Assembly: GCA_022841365.1 (NCBI GenBank)
Contig: JALHRP010000013.1
Coordinates: 1 to 64,000, forward strand
Direction of reading: 5' to 3'
Source: Chitinophagaceae bacterium
GTDB lineage: Bacteria > Bacteroidota > Bacteroidia > Chitinophagales > Chitinophagaceae
DNA: 64,000 nt
Shown here: positions 26,371 to 57,225 of the stretch, in pieces
Layout of the letters: each line of letters starts with the position of its first letter
Position numbering within the stretch: the first letter of the stretch is position 1
Made by a program: the position numbers and the translations under genes
The notes under the pieces: generated by a model
What the model saw: only the letters and a program-made list of their open reading frames with translations
Told to the model about the DNA's origin: nothing
Databases searched by the model: none

Positions 26371-27134
26371 GCGGCTTTTCTGTTTTTCACTTCATCATAC
26401 TGCTCGTCATAATCACTTCGGATAGTTCCCATCAAACGATCCCAGAACAGAAAATACAAACCATAGTTTCCTTTAAAGTATTGATGATGTTGATTGTGGT
26501 TCACGGAGGTATTGATCCATTTACCTACCCATGTCCGTTGAAAGTTTTTTGGAAACAACTCCCATCCTAAATGCCCGTATACATTGTAAAACATCTGGAA
26601 TAAAAAGAAAAAGAACAGATGTGATTTGGTAACGGGAATCGTATAAATAAGTACAACAAGAATTCCTATTTCAAGTATTGCTTCTAATGGATGAAAAGCA
26701 AACGCTGCCCATGGCGATGGGTTGGTGCTTTTATGATGAATGAGATGAAAGATTCGAAATAGTTTGGGATGATGCATGAGGCGATGGATCCAGTAGAAAT
26801 AAGTATCGTGTATCAGCAACATCAACGGAAAAGCCAGCCAGAAATACAGCTGCCCGTGCTGGTTGATGTTGTTGTAAAACGTTGTATGCTTTCTTATTTC
26901 TGCATGACCCAGAAAAAACCAGGGCACAAATGCAAACAGAAACATGGTGCAAAGTGAAAAGAAAATTTCCCGTTGATAATCTTTATTTACAGGAAAGCGC
27001 TTTTGAATTTTTTTGAATGAAATCCTGTTCTTCAAAAAAATATACCAGATCAAAAATGCCAGTCCGGCAATAACCATATACCGCAGACCTATCACGAGGA
27101 AATAACTGATCCATGTACCGTTGGGCTGAAGCAT
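26367..27134 (-). CDS. Sterol desaturase/fatty acid hydroxylase family membrane protein
   Basis: This 255-residue membrane di-iron enzyme has the full histidine set: HDTYFYWIHRLMHHPKLF, HLIHHKSTNPSPWAAFAFHP and NHNQHHQYFKGNYGLYFLFWDRLMGT. Hydrophobic segments at the N-terminus and before each box place the active site at the cytoplasmic face. The family hydroxylates or desaturates lipids, and this member's substrate is unknown. The last stop base overlaps the upstream convergent gene. It lies 43 bp downstream of the flavin reductase gene in the same direction, so they may be transcribed together. Confidence 0.9.
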   Translation of the reverse strand: MLQPNGTWISYFLVIGLRYMVIAGLAFLIWYIFLKNRISFKKIQKRFPVNKDYQREIFFSLCTMFLFAFVPWFFLGHAEIRKHTTFYNNINQHGQLYFWLAFPLMLLIHDTYFYWIHRLMHHPKLFRIFHLIHHKSTNPSPWAAFAFHPLEAILEIGILVVLIYTIPVTKSHLFFFFLFQMFYNVYGHLGWELFPKNFQRTWVGKWINTSVNHNQHHQYFKGNYGLYFLFWDRLMGTIRSDYDEQYDEVKNRKAA

Positions 27135-27177
27135 GGGTTAAAATTACTACAAGTGGCTGCAAAAAGTTCATCGTTTT

Positions 27178-28071
27178 TTAGCTGTCGGCCAGTAATACCT
27201 GCCAGGCTTCATTTACTTTCCCTGCATCGAGCAACTCTTTTGCATAGCGGTGCAACTCTTTATCCATCTCATCGGGGTTAATAGAAAAATATTGAATGAT
27301 ATTTTTCAAACGTTCGTCTTCAAACGTGGCATCAACAACCGGGTAATCATGCACATTAGCCAGTTGACCCAGATTGTTACCGGTTAAAATGCTGCTGTTC
27401 CGGATCGTATCAGGTAATGCATCAATGCCAATACCGAGTTGTGTATTGGGTTTGGCAACATGAAACAAACTGTGTTCATCCACCTTGCAATACCAATCGC
27501 CGCCGAGTCGTGCAATATGCTGCAGCTTGCGCTGATCAATCATTGTTCCTTCTGTATTCAAAATGCTTTCATCTACATGCATGCGCAGCACTTCACAAAT
27601 AACCAGATTACCGGCACCACCTTCTGTTCCCAATGGTTTTACTTCAATCACTTTACACTCCATCTTCACTTTACTTTCTTTTACCATCGGTGGTTTCACC
27701 AATGTAGCAGCTTCTTCTGTAAATCCTGCTTTGATGAATTCATTGGTGCCTTTTGGGAATTCGCAACTGGCTAAACTTACCTGTTGCACCATTTCATAAT
27801 CAACAATATTGATTACTACTTCCGGCACATCTAATACATTTTGCAATGTATGTTTGGTTGTATTATCTCTCACTCTTCGTGCAGGCGAAAACACAACGAT
27901 GGGTGGATTCGATGAAAACAAATTAAAAAAGCTGAAGGGACTCAGGTTTACATTTCCTTCTTTATCAATTGTGGATGCAAAACATACAGGTCGAGGCGCA
28001 ACAGCATGCTGCAGCCATTGTTGTTTTTGCATGGGGTTGATGTCTGAGAGATCAATGATCATATGATTCAT
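27178..28071 (-). CDS. Flavin reductase family (FMN-binding split-barrel) protein
   Basis: This 297-residue protein has a flavin-reductase-like domain in residues ~10-190: AVAPRPVCFASTIDKEGNVNLSPFSFFN (FMN phosphate site) and NTKHTL-type segments. A C-terminal extension of about 90 residues is usual for the Bacteroidota version. In this phylum such genes often lie next to homogentisate-pathway genes, and an FAA-hydrolase family gene is upstream here. A role in aromatic amino-acid degradation is therefore inferred. The gap between the two genes is entirely filled by the GxxExxY element, and the first base of the element overlaps this start codon. Confidence 0.85.
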   Translation of the reverse strand: MNHMIIDLSDINPMQKQQWLQHAVAPRPVCFASTIDKEGNVNLSPFSFFNLFSSNPPIVVFSPARRVRDNTTKHTLQNVLDVPEVVINIVDYEMVQQVSLASCEFPKGTNEFIKAGFTEEAATLVKPPMVKESKVKMECKVIEVKPLGTEGGAGNLVICEVLRMHVDESILNTEGTMIDQRKLQHIARLGGDWYCKVDEHSLFHVAKPNTQLGIGIDALPDTIRNSSILTGNNLGQLANVHDYPVVDATFEDERLKNIIQYFSINPDEMDKELHRYAKELLDAGKVNEAWQVLLADS

Positions 28072-28556
28072 TTGGCGCAGAGAACAAGAGAAACAGAGTG
28101 ATGCGCAGAGTTAAAAATTGTGAACGATTCGTTTAAATCCATCTTTTAAAAGCGGCACGTTAAAGTTAATGAGATAACCGAGTTGTTTATTGTAAAGCTT
28201 TAAATAGGTAATTACCTGAAATTGAAAAACAGGATTCATTAACTCAACCGATTTGTTTTCAATCACCACTTCTCCCTCAACCAACAAGTCAATTTCATAT
28301 GCCTTTCCCAATGCCTGATCTTTATAAACTAATTGAACAGGCACGTTCGCAATTACATGTAATCCTCTTAGTTCAAGCTCTCGTTTTAGCGCAAGTTAAT
28401 AAGCAGATTCAAGCAGACCGGGGCCTAATTCCCTGTGAACTGTTATTGCTGAATCCAGAATTATTGAACCTATCTCGTTCAGGCGTTCTTTATTCATATT
28501 TATAGTTTTTTATACCTCTCTGCGTTTAACTCTGCATCTCGCTTCTCAGCGCCAAA
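28071..28556 (-). mobile_element. Small element with inverted ends carrying a GxxExxY gene
   Basis: The ends are inverted copies: TTTGGCGCAGAGAA at 28071-28084 and, on the opposite strand, TTTGGCGCTGAGAA at 28556-28543 (13 of 14 identical). Inside each end are CAGAG/CTCTG-rich repeats. The interior holds one broken GxxExxY gene. The element exactly spans the gap between an FAA-hydrolase gene (its stop begins at 28561) and the flavin reductase start codon. I see no obvious target-site duplication. Mobility is inferred from this structure, not demonstrated. Confidence 0.6.
28111..28497 (-). pseudogene. GxxExxY protein (PDDEXK-like family), broken by one nonsense codon
   Basis: Reading from ATG 28497 gives MNKERLNEIGSIILDSAITV... 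with the family name motif G-L-L-E-S-A-Y intact at residues 27-33. An in-frame TAA then stands at codon 34 (28398-28396), where the family normally has Glu. The frame resumes and continues to a normal C-terminus (INFNVPLLKDGFKRIVHNF), giving 128 codons in all. A single G-to-T change in a GAA codon explains it. The track ORF 28111-28344 is only its 3' part. The family has a nuclease-like fold with no settled function. Confidence 0.85.
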
Positions 28557-28560
28557 ACCT

Positions 28561-29565
28561 TTATTTCTTCCTCCCCAAAATCGAAAAATCATCTTCCTCT
28601 CTCACCATCGTATTACTCAATCTGCCCAGTCCATCAATTTCCATTTCAACCACATCACCTTCCTGTAACCATTGCTCAGTATAATTTGCATCATTGAGTT
28701 TACCAGTGCCGTTTAATTCTAAAAAACAACCGGTGCCAACCGTACCACTGCCAATCACATCTCCGGGAAACAGGTCAACACCATAACTGGCACGCTCAAT
28801 AATTTCAGCAAAGGTCCAGTTCATTTCAGAAACATTACCTGCACTCACCTGCACACCGTTTACCCAACACTTCATATTTAAATTCCAGTTAAGACCCACA
28901 TGATTTTCTTTTGCGGGTACAACAAACTCCTGCAGTTCATCAAGCGTTACCAACCAAGGGCCAATGACTGTTGAAAAATCTTTTCCTTTCGCCGGACCAA
29001 GATTCAGCAGCATCTCTTCCATCTGCAAACGGCGTGCACTCATATCGTTCATAATCATCAAACCACCAATGTATGCATCCGCTTCTTCTGCACGAATGTT
29101 ACGCCCCTGTTTACAAATCACAATAGCAACTTCCAATTCAAAGTCGAGTTTTTCAAAATGATCGGGCATGCAACGCACATCGCCGGGGCCTTGTATGCTG
29201 TGATGATTGGTGAAATAAAAAATCGGGTATTGATCAAACTCTGCAATCATCTCCACCTTTCGGTTTCTCCTTGCAGCTTCTACATGCTGACGAAATGCAT
29301 ATCCATCTCTGCAACTTGGCGGCATGGGAACAGGAGCCAGTAATTGCAGATCGCCTATCGGCACAGCGTTTCCGGGCATTAAACGCCCTTCCTGTACCGC
29401 TTTTAAACTGGCTTTTGCTAATTCAAGATACTCATCCCAGTATTGCAAAAACATATTCATACTGGTGGGCAGGTCGGGATGAAGTGTGTCCATATCATAC
29501 ACAAGACCGTTATGTAAAACCGCTAACTGTTCGTGTTCGTTTTTTAAGTAGGAGATTAATTTCAT
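28561..29565 (-). CDS. Fumarylacetoacetate hydrolase family protein
   Basis: This 334-residue enzyme (start ATG 29565, MKLISYLKNE...; the track start 29634 lies upstream of the promoter box) has an N-terminal FAA-hydrolase_N region and a catalytic FAA hydrolase domain. Family marks are EKLDFELEVAIVI (metal-binding Glu residues), GLMIMNDMSARRLQ, GKDFSTVIGPWLVT, and the C-terminal LFPGDVIGSGTVGTGC. It probably hydrolyses a fumarylacetoacetate-like compound at the end of tyrosine degradation. The adjacent flavin reductase gene, now separated by an element, supports this. The paralogous acylpyruvase role is an alternative. Confidence 0.85.
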   Translation of the reverse strand: MKLISYLKNEHEQLAVLHNGLVYDMDTLHPDLPTSMNMFLQYWDEYLELAKASLKAVQEGRLMPGNAVPIGDLQLLAPVPMPPSCRDGYAFRQHVEAARRNRKVEMIAEFDQYPIFYFTNHHSIQGPGDVRCMPDHFEKLDFELEVAIVICKQGRNIRAEEADAYIGGLMIMNDMSARRLQMEEMLLNLGPAKGKDFSTVIGPWLVTLDELQEFVVPAKENHVGLNWNLNMKCWVNGVQVSAGNVSEMNWTFAEIIERASYGVDLFPGDVIGSGTVGTGCFLELNGTGKLNDANYTEQWLQEGDVVEMEIDGLGRLSNTMVREEDDFSILGRKK

Positions 29566-29585
29566 GCAATCAGTTTTTAAGAGCG

Positions 29586-29594
29586 CCAAAGGTA
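29586..29594 (-). promoter_or_regulatory. -7 box for the FAA hydrolase gene
   Basis: The minus-strand TACCTTTGG matches TAnnTTTG, about 20 bases upstream of ATG 29565. It argues against the longer start at 29634. Confidence 0.5.
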
Positions 29595-29657
29595 GAGAAA
29601 TGAATAGCAGCTTCTCTGTTTTTATAAGAAACAAAGCCCTTCGATTATCTCCTTTTC

Positions 29658-29681
29658 TCTCCCGATAGTTATCGGGATCTC
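29658..29681. repeat. CCCGATA/TATCGGG palindrome within degenerate CTCTGCG repeat
   Basis: CCCGATA-GT-TATCGGG is a perfect 7-bp inverted repeat, followed by CTCTGCGGT like the other CTCTG-type repeats. It lies between divergent genes just upstream of the Mur ligase promoter. Confidence 0.5.
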
Positions 29682-29698
29682 TGCGGTAAAAATCAGCT

Positions 29699-29707
29699 TA
29701 CATTTGC
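29699..29707 (+). promoter_or_regulatory. -7 box for the Mur ligase gene, nearly leaderless
   Basis: TACATTTGC is a perfect TAnnTTTGY match ending 5 nt before ATG 29713. The track start (TTG 29704) is inside the box. Confidence 0.6.
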
Positions 29708-29712
29708 TTTCT

Positions 29713-31122
29713 ATGATTTCTTCCATCAACGATTTCAAAAATATTTTCTTTATTGGAGTGGCCGGTACCGGTATGAGCGCCATTGCACAGTATTTAAAAG
29801 GTATAGGTAAAGAAGTAAGTGGCAGTGACCGTTATTTTCATCCCAACGAACCAAATGAAACAAAAGAAAAACTGGAAGCAGAAGGCATCAGTTGCTTTTT
29901 GCAAGATGGTGAAGGCATAACTGATAAAACAGATTTGGTTGTGGTTTCAACTGCTGTAGAAGATACCGTTGAAGAAGTGATTAAAGCAAAACAACTGAAC
30001 ATTCCCATCATCAAGCGTGCAGAGCTGTTAGCGATTATTGCAAGAAGTAAAAAAACGATTGCTGTTGGCGGCACCAGTGGTAAATCAACCACCAGTGCCA
30101 TGTTGTTTGATATTTTGCAACATGCAGGTATGCAACCCAGCATCATCAGCGGAGCTGGGTTGACAAGCATTATAAAGGAGGGTAAGATAGGTAATGCAAA
30201 AGTTGGTAGTGGCGACTGGCTCGTTATCGAAGCCGATGAAAGCGACGGCAGCATTGTAAACTATACACCCGAAGTTGGTTTGCTCATCAACATTGATAAA
30301 GATCATAAGGAGATTGATACCCTCATTGAAATATTTGAGCAGTTCAAAAAAAACACAAGCGAATTCTTTGTGGTGAACCAATCGCATCCATTGGCAAAAA
30401 AATTATCTGCTAACCCTTTACATAATTTTTCAGTTGATACAAGTGATGATGCGGCATATCATGCAACTGGCTTTAAGCAAGATGGCTTTTCAATTTCATT
30501 TAAGATTCAGAAAAGCGGAGGGGAATCACTCATCACTGATCACTCATTATTCATGCTGCACGCTCTCGGCAAACACAATATGGAAAACGCTCTTGCTGCT
30601 GCAACCGTTGCCAGCCTCATTGGCGTTCCATTACAAACAGCAGCTGATGCGTTGAGAAATTATGAAGGCATTTATCGTCGTCATCAGATCATCGGGCAAA
30701 AAAACAATGTGTGGTTAATTGATGATTATGCACACAACCCGGCTAAGTGTGCAGCAAGTATTGAGGCCTGTCAGCCAATTGCCAAAAAAGTCATTGCATG
30801 GTTTCAACCACATGGCTACGGACCCACAAAATTTCTGCGCAACGATTTTGTAAATGAGATCAGCAAAGTATTACGTCCGCAAGATGAAATATGGATGAGT
30901 GAAATTTTTTATGCCGGCGGAACAGCGGTAAAAGATATTTCAGCGAACGATCTGATTAATGATCTCAAAGCAAAAGGTGCGCAGGCGTTTTTTGTTGAAA
31001 ACAGGAATGATCTTGTTGCTTCTCTTCGCCCGCATTTTACAGATGACTGTGTACTGCTGCTCATGGGGGCCCGTGATCCTTCACTGGAGCAGTTTGCAAA
31101 ATTGGTGTGGGAGAACTTATAA
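29713..31122 (+). CDS. Mur ligase family protein (MurC-like, divergent)
   Basis: This 469-residue protein resembles UDP-N-acetylmuramate-L-alanine ligase: an N-terminal nucleotide-fold start (FFIGVAGTGMSAIAQYL), the central ATP domain and a C-terminal ligase domain (DDYAHNPAKCAAS). The ATP loop reads GGTSGKSTT instead of the usual GTHGKTT. The metal/substrate region reads EADESDGSIVNYTPEVGLLINIDKDHKE. The gene is not in a cell-division cluster. It may be a MurC or Mpl paralogue acting on recycled or modified precursors rather than the essential MurC. The start at ATG 29713 is set by the promoter box. Confidence 0.8.
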   Translation: MISSINDFKNIFFIGVAGTGMSAIAQYLKGIGKEVSGSDRYFHPNEPNETKEKLEAEGISCFLQDGEGITDKTDLVVVSTAVEDTVEEVIKAKQLNIPIIKRAELLAIIARSKKTIAVGGTSGKSTTSAMLFDILQHAGMQPSIISGAGLTSIIKEGKIGNAKVGSGDWLVIEADESDGSIVNYTPEVGLLINIDKDHKEIDTLIEIFEQFKKNTSEFFVVNQSHPLAKKLSANPLHNFSVDTSDDAAYHATGFKQDGFSISFKIQKSGGESLITDHSLFMLHALGKHNMENALAAATVASLIGVPLQTAADALRNYEGIYRRHQIIGQKNNVWLIDDYAHNPAKCAASIEACQPIAKKVIAWFQPHGYGPTKFLRNDFVNEISKVLRPQDEIWMSEIFYAGGTAVKDISANDLINDLKAKGAQAFFVENRNDLVASLRPHFTDDCVLLLMGARDPSLEQFAKLVWENL

Positions 31123-56824: not shown

Positions 56825-56891
56825 GAAGGAATTGCTTTGGGCAAAAGTAGTTGTTCTTTCATGAATTGAATTTGAGTGGGTCTAACGCCAA

Positions 56892-57012
56892 GGTTCGTGT
56901 CCCACGAACCTCTATTTCGTTTTTAGCTAAATTGAGATGTTACAGCAAAAGTTTTGCTACTTGTATTTTTTGAATTAACCTATACTTTTGTTTGGTTCGT
57001 GGGACACGAACC
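56892..57012. repeat. Intergenic inverted-repeat element with GGTTCGTG hairpins
   Basis: GGTTCGTG-TCC-CACGAACC (56892-56910) and its exact reverse complement GGTTCGTG-GGA-CACGAACC (56994-57012) stand 83 bp apart, so each end can fold alone or the two ends can pair with each other. ACGCC words lie outside both ends in inverted order. Between them is a further palindrome, AGCAAAA-G-TTTTGCT. No ORF is present. Confidence 0.7.
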
Positions 57013-57225
57013 ACGGCGTGAACCCCTGCTGATGCAAGCGTCTCACTTGAACCTTCATAAAAAAATTAAACTACTGCAGCACAAACAAGCCGCTTGCGCT
57101 ACATCGAAACTTTGAAGAACACATTTAGCTACCAAAATAATCAACAAGAAATTTTGACTTCCTGTCTGAAAATTTTTCAGCACTCCCGGACAAAATTTCA
57201 TCGCCTCCTGCTTATAAAATCTGCA
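57013..57225. other. Upstream region of the hsp20 gene with no gene
   Basis: This is AT-rich DNA between the inverted-repeat element and the candidate hsp20 promoter. I find no convincing ORF (the small minus-strand ORF 57055-57273 has no support) and no clear RNA structure. Confidence 0.5.

Follow-up and report, generated by a model that had tools for sequence, protein, structure and literature searches.

An element between two operon genes

The window analysed here, a stretch of 64,000 nucleotides from a Chitinophagaceae bacterium, carries a 486-bp element between an FAA-hydrolase gene and a flavin-reductase-like gene (Table 1). An earlier sequence-only reading had described 14-bp inverted ends, and these are indeed present: TTTGGCGCAGAGAA and TTCTCAGCGCCAAA are complementary at 13 of 14 positions. 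They are, at the same time, only the outermost part of longer arms of about 40 bp each, which form an imperfect palindrome with a GxxExxY gene in its loop. The arms are built of CGCAGAG-like units and contain, further in, another inverted pair, 23 nt long; when the two arms are joined they fold into a single, interrupted hairpin (z = -4.8 relative to shuffled sequences). The element occupies the complete gap between its neighbours; the first ATG of the flavin-reductase-like gene shares one base with the element end, and the native start of that gene is likely the ATG ending at 28062. That the element fills an operon gap had also been proposed, and comparison agrees, since in relatives without it the two genes abut or lie a few to about 110 bp apart.

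Table 1. Features of the element and its neighbours in the window.
Feature	Position	Strand	Sequence or remark
Flavin-reductase-like gene	27178..28071	-	Downstream operon neighbour
Outer end, flavin-reductase side	28071-28084		TTTGGCGCAGAGAA
Arm, flavin-reductase side	28071..28110	+	TTTGGCGCAGAGAACAAGAGAAACAGAGTGATGCGCAGAG; inverted copy of 28518-28556, folds with it
GxxExxY pseudogene (PDDEXK_3, PF13366/TIGR04256)	28111..28497	-	Profile matches; same-site orthologues in relatives
In-frame TAA, GxxExxY codon 34	28396..28398	-	
Arm, FAA-hydrolase side	28518..28556	-	Minus-strand reading TTTGGCGCTGAGAAGCGAGATGCAGAGTTAAACGCAGAG; inverted pairing, fold, site survey
Outer end, FAA-hydrolase side	28543-28556		TTCTCAGCGCCAAA
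FAA-hydrolase gene	28561..29565	-	Upstream operon neighbour; anchor of site survey

Exact matches to the 14-mer in the window are two in all, namely both element ends, and allowing two mismatches raises the number to 4 (shuffle mean 1.0). Known RNA families of Rfam are absent from positions 27000-30000 and from the related hairpins described below. Upstream of the FAA gene, at 29601-29698, there is a degenerate hairpin-like stretch, CTCCTTTTCTCTCCCGATAGTTATCGGGATCTCTGCGGTAAAAA, in which CTCTGCGG is combined with a CCCGATAGTTATCGGG palindrome, and a composite resembling it is present at locus L372 (genome G000, contig C46). At 56878-57026 lie two 33-nt arms with 85% complementarity and 83 nt between them. 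Both contain a GGTTCGTG.CCCACGAACC palindrome; they are REP-like and have no relation to the GxxExxY element.

The GxxExxY gene and its predicted nuclease

The enclosed DNA is one GxxExxY gene, as the first reading had it, matching its family at E 2.5e-37 (TIGR04256) and 1.1e-36 (PF13366); these are the only matches of the window gene, with no DDE or HUH (Y1) transposase. What had been overlooked is the in-frame TAA at codon 34, which makes the window copy a dead pseudogene, still possessing the nuclease-motif residues. Across 49 sequences E30, Y33, D70, E80, K82, and Q94 are invariant and Y98 is conserved in at least 90%, and the pattern E30, D70, E80-x-K82, Q94-xxx-Y98 fits the Cas4/RecB/lambda-exonuclease branch. 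A structure model of GxxExxY (pLDDT 95) has as its top PDB match 4ic1 (Cas4 SSO0001; Foldseek E 0.02, probability 0.98, TM 0.47), and lambda exonuclease is also among the best matches, the E-values being weak in both cases. Cas4 HMMs are matched by 28 of the 49 GxxExxY relatives; PADLOC places the window protein itself in no defence family, the similarity to Cas4 being confined to the relatives. GxxExxY is confidently modelled as a predicted PD-(D/E)XK nuclease of the Cas4/RecB/lambda-exonuclease type. For the computable pairs dN/dS is 0.03-0.16, indicating that the function of intact copies is under strong purifying selection. Plasmids seldom carry the gene (8 of 72,556 records), and it is absent from the 50,697 phage records searched.

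Inverted arms at GxxExxY loci

Whether such arms accompany GxxExxY genes in general was addressed with a flank test, in which the upstream flank is compared by alignment with the reverse-complemented downstream flank (150 bp each), arms are called at an inverted-similarity score of at least 13, and windows 500 bp further out serve as controls. Among 93 loci from the same family as the window genome, the mean score was 15.5 within loci and 8.4 between loci, and the maximum of 20,000 permutations was 9.60; the threshold was reached by 60% within loci, compared with 3.8% between loci and 0 of 86 control windows. A broader sample of 78 loci, drawn from Bacteroidota, Verrucomicrobiota, Cyanobacteria, Chloroflexota, Acidobacteriota, Proteobacteria, archaea, and others, has arms at 56% (control windows 0 of 65), and FAA genes used as a further control have inverted flanks in 0 of 29 cases. 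The suspected enrichment of inverted repeats around GxxExxY genes is therefore real in both samples. The repeats in the arms are spaced 8-10 bp. Approximately 40% of GxxExxY genes have no arms detectable at the sensitivity of the flank test. Genomes may hold multiple copies; in the window genome three of the six GxxExxY genes are armed, each with its own variant, and the other three have no arms clear by eye. In several genera (L043, L044, L048, L078) a GxxExxY hairpin gene sits in an apparent nuoF-nuoG gap, the flanking peptides having been judged by eye, and this looks like another long-held operon position of GxxExxY elements.

The type of arm follows the type of protein. For 60 armed loci, comparing only pairs with unrelated flanking genes, the more alike two GxxExxY proteins are, the more alike are their arms (Spearman 0.44; the highest of 2000 Mantel permutations gives 0.11), and arms are shared by 59% of pairs above 60% protein identity and by 0.5% of pairs at 30-35%. 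Since arm type tracks the protein at unrelated sites, the same gene-arm package is present at different places: gene and arms are inherited as a unit, which recurs at many sites unrelated to each other, and the arms go with the protein. The earlier proposal that the protein acts on the repeats gains from this co-variation its plausibility for the family, and is not supported for the window copy, which carries the stop codon.

Gene-less hairpins and their turnover

The arm type of the window element recurs in gene-less hairpins elsewhere in the same genome. With one mismatch allowed the 14-mer occurs 24 times genome-wide, compared with once for a reversed control, and most of these matches pair up into intergenic hairpins without a gene, 80-90 bp long. 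The ends thus also occur where the gene does not, but paired as the arms of compact hairpins. Such hairpins look like non-autonomous derivatives of the GxxExxY element. A covariance model trained on the hairpins of the window genome detected relatives of them in 18 of the 100 genomes searched within the family, and with the training genome left out, hairpins are present in 7 of the 9 genomes that have the element at the FAA site and in 10 of the 90 that do not (Fisher 4e-5). A tree-based check of this association goes in the same direction, though with too few independent pairs. Shared ancestry of the genomes could contribute to the association, although the genomes with the FAA-site element are scattered on the FAA/reductase tree.

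Relationship between hairpins and resident element differs among genomes. In G022, all six tested gene-less hairpins are closest to the arms of that genome's own FAA-site element, and the hairpins show compensatory changes (12 cells; 0 of 500 shuffles). For G085 and G067 the resident master is a poor match to the scattered hairpins and not their best one. Some gene-less hairpin loops of GxxExxY type in G022 (L132, L141, L143) hold TTAGCTATTAGC-type sequences resembling the arms of PF05635 genes, which suggests nested insertion.

Comparison of the window genome with its sister species G085 shows that hairpins have been gained or lost since the two split. All five tested hairpin sites of the window genome are empty in G085 with both neighbouring genes conserved, and two G085 hairpins are missing from the window genome, while two further G085 sites are not scorable as empty. 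No target-site duplication or exact junction is visible, the orthologous gaps being too diverged to place a junction.

History of the FAA site

The element occurs in the FAA-reductase gap of 10 genomes, and in about 27 genomes this gap is short or empty. FAA-site GxxExxY proteins from nine genomes tested form one exclusive clade (SH-aLRT 99), and the site was therefore filled long ago. Recent insertion at the window site is rejected on this ground, and the active homing once suggested for the window copy has both the single clade and the stop codon against it. Presence at the site is patchy, with repeated loss and decay: there are stop codons in G000 and G073 and deletions in G030 and G065, and in the latter the arms are still near-perfect although most of the gene is gone. 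Between G000 and G085 the FAA and reductase genes are 93 and 92% identical and GxxExxY only 56%, whereas the GxxExxY of G088, from a different genus, is about 80% identical to the G000 copy, suggesting that one of the two sister species has had its copy at the site replaced.

In G011 (L178/L116) the FAA-site element has doubled arms, outer and inner, at either side of the gene, which looks like a duplication of one arm together with part of the gene end. Three genomes have a PF05635 element in the gap or just after FAA. In other genera (L329 in G079, L339 in G035, L187 in G053) this gap downstream of FAA is occupied by a PF05635 gene with a hairpin of its own; two unrelated hairpin-borne genes have thus entered one gap.

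How the hairpins may spread

We propose, with a probability of roughly 0.58, that this is a palindromic element working like the RAYT/REPIN system with an unrelated nuclease, GxxExxY, and that the window holds a dead resident copy. A small Cas4/RecB-like PD-(D/E)XK gene and the long imperfect hairpin around it make up the element, the gene sitting in the loop and the arms, of 35-45 bp, being made of degenerate 8-10 bp units (CGCAGAG in the window). The nuclease may recognize its own arm type when the hairpin is extruded, either as a cruciform or as a single strand at the replication fork, and by cutting the extruded form would promote copying of the hairpin to new sites. Copying would mostly concern gene-less hairpins, in trans, and the gene-bearing master would reside for long periods in an operon gap, transcribed with the operon. 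The FAA-site master is in fact retained vertically and seldom jumps, a behaviour that also fits a host gene. That GxxExxY is responsible for moving the hairpins we infer from the evidence above. Counting against the proposal, besides this host-like behaviour, are the GxxExxY genes without detectable arms, the lack of a visible target-site duplication or exact junction, the arms left in G065, and the poor match between hairpins and resident master in G085 and G067.

Among the alternatives, the one that survives best, itself unlikely, is an element acting at the RNA level in the manner of 23S rRNA intervening sequences (IVS), where RNase III would excise the transcript hairpin and GxxExxY would ride in its loop. 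The anatomy of the Coxiella IVS is alike, its terminal inverted repeats forming a stem that encloses an ORF (PMC4990558), and PF05635, the family of IVS ORFs, has arms of the same build at intergenic sites, even in the FAA-reductase gap. Element orientation follows the operon at 61 of the 69 independent loci whose neighbours are co-directional, but ordinary gene triples have a similar trend and the difference is not significant (Fisher p 0.09). Mismatches read on the sense strand show no excess of G.U (141, against 166 A.C; p 0.17), and for this lack of bias we prefer action at the DNA level; RNA processing, moreover, does not account for new copies at new sites.

Slightly less probable is that GxxExxY is a host-serving nuclease, engaged in repair or policing of palindromes or encoded by an addiction-type gene, which recognizes its own hairpins while these spread via ordinary replication errors. 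The low dN/dS, the vertical retention at operon sites, and the scarcity on plasmids and absence among phage records all suit such a role, and the analogous RAYTs have been called domesticated (PMC8049555). Against it stand the patchy occupation of the FAA site, where loss and decay have recurred, the several copies per genome, and the matching arms at unrelated sites. It is very unlikely that another enzyme, a Y1/RAYT or IS200/IS605 transposase, moves the hairpins with GxxExxY as a passenger in some of them: Y1_Tnp genes do occur in all seven genomes tested, but their flanks are other REP-type palindromes, e.g., GGCTCCGTAGGAGCC, the CAGAG hairpin model has no convincing match near them, and a passenger role leaves the co-variation of arms and GxxExxY protein unexplained. 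We can practically dismiss the idea that the arms are a functionless product of template switching between the arms of a quasi-palindrome, a process known to homogenize inverted-repeat arms (PMC7202029, PMC8794818) and in line with the near-perfect arms left in G065, because it does not explain arms at GxxExxY and PF05635 genes with none at control regions, arm type tracking the protein, or gene-less copies at new sites. Within the nuclease-driven element, template switching probably helps to keep the arms alike, and arm symmetry may even be maintained by it alone.

More tentatively, and at somewhat less than even odds, GxxExxY together with its cognate iterated-unit hairpins may represent a mobile or homing class of palindromic element found in many bacterial phyla and in some archaea. 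Its enzyme would be a Cas4-like nuclease, and no transposase, recombinase, or reverse transcriptase, that recognizes its own arms and propagates hairpins lacking the gene; PF05635 (IVS) genes would be a second class of the same architecture. In the open-access literature, to which our search was limited, we found no description of GxxExxY elements, the two papers naming GxxExxY do not deal with mobility, and the repeat words were not found as a bacterial repeat. GxxExxY proteins are widely annotated without an assigned role, and the matching hairpin offers a testable substrate for them; the tie between gene and hairpin would also explain scattered intergenic repeats of the CAGAG/CTCTG type.

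Comparison with known systems

With insertion sequences and MITEs the GxxExxY element shares terminal inverted repeats and the existence of autonomous and non-autonomous forms. It differs in having no DDE transposase, in showing no visible target-site duplication (the gaps being diverged), and in that its inverted ends form an entire hairpin. The likeness to Cas4, RecB, and lambda exonuclease lies in the modelled fold and in the E-D-ExK plus QxxxY residues; unlike these, GxxExxY is a minimal stand-alone protein of about 125 aa which is tied to hairpin arms and not to CRISPR or recombination operons.

The 23S rRNA IVS with its S23/IVP ORF (PF05635) likewise places a small ORF in a hairpin loop, the hairpin being long and imperfect; it too lacks a known transposase and is patchily distributed, with loss. 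The IVS, however, resides in rRNA helices, whereas GxxExxY occupies operon and intergenic gaps, and the window element lies between two protein genes, outside any 23S rRNA helix; the protein family is another one, and gene-less hairpin families are seen for GxxExxY. At intergenic PF05635 loci the flank test finds inverted arms at 79% of 34 (control 0 of 33). These arms (L031-L037, L277-L305; C13:78625-78921, on the window's contig but outside the window) consist of locus-specific, near-perfect 8-bp tandem units such as TTAGCCAT, TTGGATG, and AATTTGAAA. This would be an architectural link to the rRNA intervening sequences, whose spread is likewise unexplained.

In its proposed working the element resembles the RAYT/REPIN system (PMC3116915, PMC8049555). 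Both have a dedicated nuclease-type gene beside matching palindromes, scattered gene-less hairpins that share sequence with the gene flanks of the same genome, and long vertical residence with rarity on plasmids. The defining feature of RAYT, its Y1 HUH transposase, is replaced here by a PD-(D/E)XK fold; the GxxExxY gene lies inside the palindrome loop, its arms are iterated CAGAG-type units, the elements occur across many phyla, and the GTAG or CGTC tag of REP ends was found by inspection in neither window arm. Chitinophagaceae also possess the classical arrangement, with Y1_Tnp (RAYT-type) genes flanked by GGCTCCGTAGGAGCC-like REPs (L382-L395), and these RAYT genes with their own, different palindromes provide a positive control for the flank method. 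If our reading is right, the comparison would place a Cas4-like nuclease among the enzymes that sustain palindromic repeats.
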